A program made the position numbers and the translations under genes. The notes beneath the pieces were generated by a model that made no database searches, was not told the origin of the DNA, and saw only the letters and a list, made by a program, of their open reading frames with translations. Below are positions 20,223 through 23,204 of a stretch of DNA of 64,000 bases, piece after piece. Source of the DNA: Dehalococcoidia bacterium. GTDB lineage: Bacteria; Chloroflexota; Dehalococcoidia; DSTF01; JACRBR01. The stretch lies in the NCBI GenBank assembly GCA_021462855.1, contig JAJTXQ010000049.1, forward strand, positions 88,743 to 152,742, in the 5' to 3' direction. The stretch's first letter is position 1. Each line of letters starts with the position of its first letter.

Positions 20223-21119
20223 ATGGGTTCGCGCGCAGGCCTTCGTGTGCACCTGGTCGACGGGACGTACGAGCTGTTCCGGCATTACTTCGCGGTGCCG
20301 TCCCATCGCACGGCCGACGGCGCGGAGGCCGGCGCGATGCGCGGCGTGCTGAACTCGCTCGTCGCGCTGCTGGGCGAAGGCGCAACGCACGTCGGCGTGG
20401 CGACAGACCACGTCATCGAATCGTTCCGCAACGACCTGTGGGCCGGATACAAGACGGGCGCCGGCATCGCGCCGGACCTGCTGGCGCAGTTCACGCCGCT
20501 CGAGGACGCGCTGCGCGAGCTCGGCCTCGCGGTGTGGGCGATGGTCGAGCACGAGGCCGACGACGCGCTGGCGGCGGGGGCGCGGCAGGCGTCGGCGTAC
20601 GCGAGCCAGGTGCTGATCTGCACGCCGGACAAGGACCTCGCGCAGTGCGTGGATGGCGCGCGCGTGGTGCAGTTCGACCGGCGCAAGAACGCCGCGCTCG
20701 ACGACGCCGGCGTGCTCGCGAAGTTCGGCGTGCCGCCGGCGTCGATCGCCGATTACCTCGCGCTTGTCGGCGACGCGGCCGATGGTTACCCGGGACTTCC
20801 CGGGTGGGGCGCGAAGTCGGCGGCGGCGATCCTGCGCGCGTACGGCCACATCGAGGCGGTCCCGGAGCGGGCGTCGGAGTGGAGCGTGGCGCTCCGCGGC
20901 GGGCACGTGCTTGCGGCGACGCTGCGGGACCGGCGGGACGAGGCGTTGCTGTTCAAGGACCTCGCCACCTTGCGGACGGACATCGACATCGACGCGTCGG
21001 AGGAGCGGCTGCGGTGGCGGGGGCCGGGGCCGGGGTTCCGCGCGCTGGCGGAGCGGCTCGGGTCGCCGGGGCTTGCGCAGCGCGCCGAGGCGGCGGCCGT
21101 GGCGCGCGGGTGCGCGTGA
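20223..21119 (+). CDS. stand-alone 5'-3' exonuclease (Pol I N-terminal/FEN-like)
   Basis: LVDGTYELFRHYFA, EHEADDALAAGA, ICTPDKDLAQCV, LVGDAADGYPGLPGWGAKSAAAIL H3TH. Confidence 0.9.
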   Translation: MGSRAGLRVHLVDGTYELFRHYFAVPSHRTADGAEAGAMRGVLNSLVALLGEGATHVGVATDHVIESFRNDLWAGYKTGAGIAPDLLAQFTPLEDALRELGLAVWAMVEHEADDALAAGARQASAYASQVLICTPDKDLAQCVDGARVVQFDRRKNAALDDAGVLAKFGVPPASIADYLALVGDAADGYPGLPGWGAKSAAAILRAYGHIEAVPERASEWSVALRGGHVLAATLRDRRDEALLFKDLATLRTDIDIDASEERLRWRGPGPGFRALAERLGSPGLAQRAEAAAVARGCA

Positions 21120-21461: not shown

Positions 21462-22064
21462 ATGGCGGTTGCGACTGCAATGGCATCGGACGGCGGATCG
21501 GGCTACCCGATCGATCTCGACGTGTCATACCCGGAGAAGCTCAATCGCTGGCTGCCGCTGATCAAGTGGCTGCTCGCGATCCCGCACATGATCATCCTGT
21601 ACGCGCTGAACCTGGCGGCGAGCGTGGTGACGTTCATCGCCTTCTTCGCGATTCTCTTCACCGCGAAATATCCCGAGGGCCTGTTCAGGTTCGTGCTGGG
21701 CGTGCAGCGGTGGCGGCTCAACGTCAACGTGTACACCAGCCTGCTGCGTGACGAGTATCCGCCGTTCACGATGGACGCGGGCCAGTACCCGGCCGCGCTC
21801 GAGGTGCCGTACCCGGCGAACATGAACCGCTGGATGCCGCTCGTGAAGTGGCTGCTGGCTATCCCGCATTACATCGTGTTGTTGTTCCTGGGGATCGCGG
21901 TCGCCGTCACGACGGTCATCGCGTTCTTTGCGATCCTGATCACATCGTCGTATCCGCGCGGGCTGCATGGCTTCGCGGTGGGCGTCACGCGATGGAGCAC
22001 GCGCGTGAACCTGTACGTGACGCTGATGACGGACGCGTACCCGCCGTTCAGCCTCGACCCGTAG
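21462..22064 (+). CDS. DUF4389 protein, two repeats
   Basis: YPEKLNRWLPLIKWLLAIPHMIILYALN...FFAILFTAKYPEGLFRFVLGVQRWRLNVNVYTSLLRDEYPPF, then a second copy. Confidence 0.85.
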   Translation: MAVATAMASDGGSGYPIDLDVSYPEKLNRWLPLIKWLLAIPHMIILYALNLAASVVTFIAFFAILFTAKYPEGLFRFVLGVQRWRLNVNVYTSLLRDEYPPFTMDAGQYPAALEVPYPANMNRWMPLVKWLLAIPHYIVLLFLGIAVAVTTVIAFFAILITSSYPRGLHGFAVGVTRWSTRVNLYVTLMTDAYPPFSLDP

Positions 22065-22073
22065 GAGCGCGCG

Positions 22074-23204
22074 ATCGGAGCCATCGCCGCAGACGCGCAC
22101 TCGCTGCCACACCCCGTCACCTTCGACGTCGCGTACCCCGAGCGGCTGTCCCGCCGGCTGATCTTCGTCAAGTGGCTGGCGATCATCCCGCACCTGATCG
22201 CGCTGTACCTGCTGTTCGGCGTGGCGCAGATCCTGGCGGTGCTCGCGTGGTTCGCGATCTTGTTCACCGGGCGCTATCCGCGCGCGTTCTTCCCGTTCAC
22301 GTCGGGGGTGCTGCGCTGGGCGTCGAACGCGATGGCGTACGCGGCGCTGCTGCGGGACGAGTATCCGCCGTTTGGCTGGGAGCCGGGCGATTATCCGCTC
22401 GACCTCGACATCCCGATGGCGGAGCGGCAGTCGCGGCTGCGGCTGTTCGTGCGCGGCGCGGCGATCATGCCGAACATCCTCGTGTTCACGTTCGTGCAGA
22501 TCGCGTGGTTCGTGACGACGACGGTCGCGTGGTTCGCGATCCTGTTCAGCGGGCGCTACCCGCGGGGGCTGTTTCGTTTCGGCGCCGGGGCGATGCGCTG
22601 GTACAACCGCCAGGCGGCGTACCTGTTCCTGCTGCGCGACGAATACCCGCCGTACAGCGTCAATGCCGGCGCGCGGCCCGGCAACGAGGCGCTGTCGGCG
22701 ATCGTCGGCGCGCCGCTGTTCGCGCTGTACGTGGCGGCGAGCTTCGCGCCGGCGTTCGGGCTGCTGATGCCGGGCGAGGACACGACGCGCGTCGATGCCT
22801 CGGCGCTGGCGGACCCGGCGGCGCTCGAACGCCAGCGTCCTTCGGCGGGGGCGAACAACCTGCGCATCACGCTCGAGGGTTACGACGATGACGCGTTCCC
22901 GCCCCCCGGCTCGGGCACGGTCATCGACAGCGACGCGCGGCTCGTGGCGTTCGACGTGCTGGTCGAGAAGACGGGCCGCTGGCCAGTGATGTACATGGCG
23001 TACCTGTTCGGCGTGGAGTCGTGCGAAGGCGAGCGGATCAGCGCGGACGTGTCGGCGACGAGCGAAGGCGGGCCGGTGTTCGAGTTCTGGTGGACGGGCG
23101 GCAGCACGCCGGCCACGGTGTACTTCCAGCTGCCGGCCGGCGACGAGGTGTGTGAACTGACCTACCGGACCGGCGCCGGGTCGATCAACTTCGTGTTCGA
23201 GTAG
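22074..23204 (+). CDS. DUF4389 protein, two further repeats plus C-terminal extracytoplasmic domain; proposed ATC start
   Basis: Same frame as 21462 gene, open from the TAG at 22062; HPVTFDVAYPERLSRRLIFVKWLAIIPHLI...LLRDEYPPFG; AGGAG 22063-22067 is 6 nt before ATC 22074; first canonical start (GTG 22221) falls inside TM1. Confidence 0.7.
   Translation: MGAIAADAHSLPHPVTFDVAYPERLSRRLIFVKWLAIIPHLIALYLLFGVAQILAVLAWFAILFTGRYPRAFFPFTSGVLRWASNAMAYAALLRDEYPPFGWEPGDYPLDLDIPMAERQSRLRLFVRGAAIMPNILVFTFVQIAWFVTTTVAWFAILFSGRYPRGLFRFGAGAMRWYNRQAAYLFLLRDEYPPYSVNAGARPGNEALSAIVGAPLFALYVAASFAPAFGLLMPGEDTTRVDASALADPAALERQRPSAGANNLRITLEGYDDDAFPPPGSGTVIDSDARLVAFDVLVEKTGRWPVMYMAYLFGVESCEGERISADVSATSEGGPVFEFWWTGGSTPATVYFQLPAGDEVCELTYRTGAGSINFVFE

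Follow-up and report, generated by a model that had tools for sequence, protein, structure and literature searches.

How is the second gene of a DUF4389 pair translated when its conserved reading frame offers no usable canonical start codon? The question arises in a 64,000-nucleotide stretch of DNA (the window, G000:C44:88743-152742) from a 3.0-Mb, 76-contig assembly with 70% GC, taken to be a metagenome-assembled genome (MAG). Here, a gene ends with a TAG codon (22062-22064) and its frame is open again from 22065 to a second TAG (23202-23204); counted from the first stop, the open frame has 379 codons and is conserved up to its end. Re-checking the sequence left all the positions given in an earlier note on this DNA unchanged, those of the gene, the open frame, the AGGAG motif overlapping the stop, the ATC codon 6 nt after it and GTG 22221 (Table 1), and it bore out that no in-frame ATG, GTG or TTG lies between TAG 22062 and GTG 22221. 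In any frame, the sole codon of this kind from the TAG to 22220 is an out-of-frame GTG (22172), placed within the conserved domain. To our knowledge, few bacterial genes besides infC start with a codon other than ATG, GTG or TTG.

Table 1. Features of the DUF4389 gene pair and of its junction, in window positions
Feature	Position	Strand	Description
Upstream gene	21462..22064	+	200 aa, two DUF4389 domains
Shine-Dalgarno-like AGGAG	22063..22067	+	Overlaps the stop codon; its 6-nt spacing is the modal one on the contig
Downstream gene	22074..23204	+	376 codons if counted from ATC; two DUF4389 domains and a C-terminal DUF4352-like tail
ATC, most likely start codon of the downstream gene	22074..22076	+	At most one codon from the relatives' ATG
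CTG, alternative near-cognate start	22104..22106	+	Without Shine-Dalgarno motif
38 conserved codons (PHPVTFDVAYPERLSRRLIFVKWL...)	22107..22220	+	Ahead of the first canonical in-frame start; pN < pS against five relatives
GTG, first canonical in-frame start	22221..22223	+	Inside the first conserved helix, no Shine-Dalgarno motif; unlikely start

As for the encoded proteins, each half of the locus has two DUF4389 repeats, as had been noticed from the sequence; all four domains score above the Pfam cut-off (PF14333), with no difference from the family. The tail of the downstream protein (22665-23201) matches DUF4352 with an E value of 0.011, under the Pfam cut-off, and its homologue in G008 gives a stronger match (1.4e-4) that is likewise sub-threshold. 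The upstream gene has an ATG start preceded by a GGGAGG-type Shine-Dalgarno (SD) motif. Another DUF4389 gene of the same genome (L001, G000:C52:3329-4057) is intact; it has two repeats, and an ATG is available for its start. In the open-access literature, a search for DUF4389 gave a single paper, which appears to concern phage resistance.

Homologues of the downstream protein are present in 17 of the 18 genomes of the order, and the comparison covers family- and order-level relatives, among which none of the same genus was found; a contig scan for relatives gave only two, both distant. In three genomes, the second cistron has its own ATG one codon past the stop of the first (+3 nt), the junctions being ...GAC TAG CGG ATG in G005, ...CCG TAA GGC ATG GCG ATC GCC in G006 and ...CCG TAA CGC ATG GCG ATC GCC in G007; with a gap of +9 nt in the window, all four are co-oriented pairs within the range of close spacing (about -8 to +12 nt). 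The ATG is found eight codons past the stop in G003, and the two genes are ∼95 nt apart in G015. G010 and G008 carry the second gene in a different frame, and its open frame overlaps or abuts the end of the first gene; finally, G004 lacks a DUF4389 gene immediately ahead of the second gene, which begins with an ATG of its own. The stops between the cistrons of the relatives are TAA, TAG or TGA. Judging from these junctions, the two-gene layout is ancestral and the locus was never one four-repeat gene, and the description of the TAG as splitting a four-repeat array has to be given up. The G015 homologue (L010, about 1360-2607, reverse-complemented locus) is extended at its N-terminus by a segment that contains two zinc-ribbon-like CxxC motifs, ahead of its DUF4389 repeats.

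Regarding the N-terminus of the downstream protein, the 38 codons ahead of GTG 22221 (codons 15-52 past the TAG) can all be aligned with each of five relatives. Nonsynonymous and synonymous differences per site are 0.188 and 0.303 against G006, and 0.156 and 0.416 against G004, a pattern that resembles that of the next 148 codons; by this measure, the codons before GTG 22221 are under purifying selection and, since they are conserved, this GTG is not the ancestral start. The same anomaly stands out in a survey of one contig of the genome, the 304-kb C44, on which a codon model seeded with the window genes was iterated to give 312 predicted genes: for the downstream gene, 31.2 nats of coding score fall ahead of the first canonical start and are lost, against 8.9 for the next highest of the 312, and it is a clear outlier on the contig for coding sequence ahead of any canonical start.

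The linker contains three near-cognate codons (ATC 22074, ATC 22083 and CTG 22104), and among them only ATC 22074, 9 nt from the upstream stop, has an SD motif at a workable distance. The assembly yielded no 16S rRNA gene and the anti-SD is therefore not readable from it, so the enrichment of SD motifs at predicted starts was used instead: on C44, AGGAG or GGAGG occurs at 4-10 nt before 71 of 294 predicted starts, compared with 47 of 3902 internal ATC codons, and the AGGAG spacing has its mode at 6 nt (16/43). Given three near-cognates in the linker, an SD match such as this one would by itself arise by chance with a probability of ∼0.04, and the evidence from conservation counts for more. The RNA around the start region is predicted to be moderately structured (-23.7 kcal/mol), which counts against the AUC start; unusual structure was not found there, its folding being no stronger than that of shuffled sequences. 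On the same contig, outside the window, an ATC with AGGAGG 10 nt upstream lies 21 codons before the first ATG of another gene (G000:C44:1459-3684, minus strand), for which the evidence is weak.

It is very likely that this lineage uses near-cognate initiation, because infC has a conserved ATA that in three of the genomes is without canonical alternative. This codon stands at the homologous start position in each of the five family genomes examined (G000 and four other members; loci L067, at G000:C8, about 20834-21043, minus strand, and L068-L071); it is directly followed by the conserved N-terminus I-A-R/K-D/E-L-R-I-N, it is preceded at 6 nt by a GAGG- or AGAGG-like motif in 4/5 genomes, and in G004, G006 and G007 there is no canonical start between the upstream stop and the ATA. 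Elsewhere, infC starts with ATT in E. coli and with ATC in Streptomyces, in which sigR has a GTC start repressed by IF3 (PMC5472188); on these grounds, an AUC start in the downstream gene would be possible in principle and would presumably be weak. The downstream gene resembles infC in its near-cognate AUN codon and in having no usable canonical start at a conserved N-terminus, but the infC start is conserved across species and autoregulated by IF3, whereas the ATC is seen in one genome and the family members use ATG. The likeness to sigR is that sigR too belongs to a gene pair and has a non-canonical start that keeps its amount below that of its neighbor, as is proposed here; in Streptomyces, however, this is experimentally shown and conserved, with another codon and another protein.

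On this evidence, the downstream gene probably starts at AUC 22074, as a weak start adjacent to the stop of its partner, with a probability of about 0.5; this figure and the lower one for start loss or base error, a little under one third, are judgements and not computed values. The pair consists of two ancestral, adjacent and co-oriented cistrons, each for a membrane protein with two DUF4389 repeats; the second protein has the additional DUF4352-like tail, and in this genome its cistron lacks a usable ATG, GTG or TTG. Placed at the stop-overlapping AGGAG, a ribosome would probably initiate at the AUC, 9 nt past the point of termination; such initiation would be weak and under restraint from IF3, and the output of the second protein would be below that of the first. 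Among the options that the earlier note had left side by side, initiation at AUC beside the stop fits the SD motif, its spacing, the position of the ATG in relatives (within one codon of ATC 22074 in G005, G006 and G007) and the AUA of infC, and it has been retained, while the four-repeat product has not. The strong SD, missing in the three close-spaced relatives, also agrees with a reported association of strong SDs with weak start codons (PMC5622118). As for the spacing, E. coli has a small class of operon pairs with gaps of +9 to +12 nt, which leave room for an SD (PMC10666635); the present pair shares with closely spaced pairs the 9 nt from stop to start, the SD over the stop and the paralogous partners, and it differs from them in the ATC, which is not a canonical start, with coupling as a candidate only.

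The serious rival is that the start codon was recently lost, by substitution of the ATG or a small indel, or was misread in the MAG consensus, in a gene that is otherwise intact and either dying or mis-sequenced; it is less probable than AUC initiation, although by no means negligible, and it would look the same. Several of the points in its favor also weigh against an AUC start. The ATC is one base from ATG and is seen in one genome only, in one consensus from a 76-contig, MAG-like assembly, and the SD with its spacing, retained here, would also outlast a recent start-loss mutation. Fixed AUG to AUC changes are very rare in genome comparisons: for 61,358 ancestral AUG starts, not one is listed, against a single AUG to AUU, a count affected by the bias of annotated starts against AUC (PMC5622118). 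A further point against the AUC is that the N-terminal alignment is ambiguous by one codon: the window ATC GGA GCC ATC GCC matches the relatives' ATG GCG ATC GCC if one codon is inserted, while the ungapped protein alignment puts their ATG opposite GGA 22077 and not ATC 22074. Against loss or error stand the frame, otherwise open over its whole length and conserved, and the linker, which differs from that of the relatives at more than one base and includes the SD that the close-spaced ones lack.

The other explanations are far less probable than start loss. Initiation at another near-cognate codon, for example CTG 22104 or ATC 22083, would leave the domain whole, both codons being ahead of it, but neither has an SD within workable range, and this is improbable. 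Readthrough or recoding of TAG 22062 into a four-repeat fusion, the other product proposed at first, is equally unlikely: the two halves share one continuous frame across a short linker, but the second gene of the relatives is separate, with its own start and at times another frame, or stands alone as in G004, so that the fusion is neither ancestral nor conserved. A fused frame shared by the relatives, with a downstream part lacking its own start, was looked for and not found. Nor is the stop rare or reassigned: more genes on the contig end with TAG than with any other stop (137 of 294 predicted genes), hence recoding is excluded, and the downstream gene itself terminates at a TAG. Finally, a truncated protein from GTG 22221 is hardly credible; no canonical start precedes it in frame after the TAG, but it has no SD, and starting there would remove the first conserved helix and discard 38 codons under purifying selection.

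In conclusion, the anomaly is real and lies within an ordinary conserved gene pair, and the probable AUC start is of a known kind, rarely documented outside infC. A more specific picture, in which a gene other than infC truly starts at AUC beside the stop of its partner, with the SD gained as the AUG was lost and a low, IF3-dependent ratio between the paralogs, is doubtful but worth stating. Starts other than ATG, GTG and TTG are missed by gene finders, and in the family genomes standard ones would misplace the start of infC, which is at the ATA. If the AUC start is true, standard annotation would cut off the first helix by beginning the downstream gene at GTG 22221, and the locus would offer a natural example of two proteins whose stoichiometry is set by the choice of start codon.
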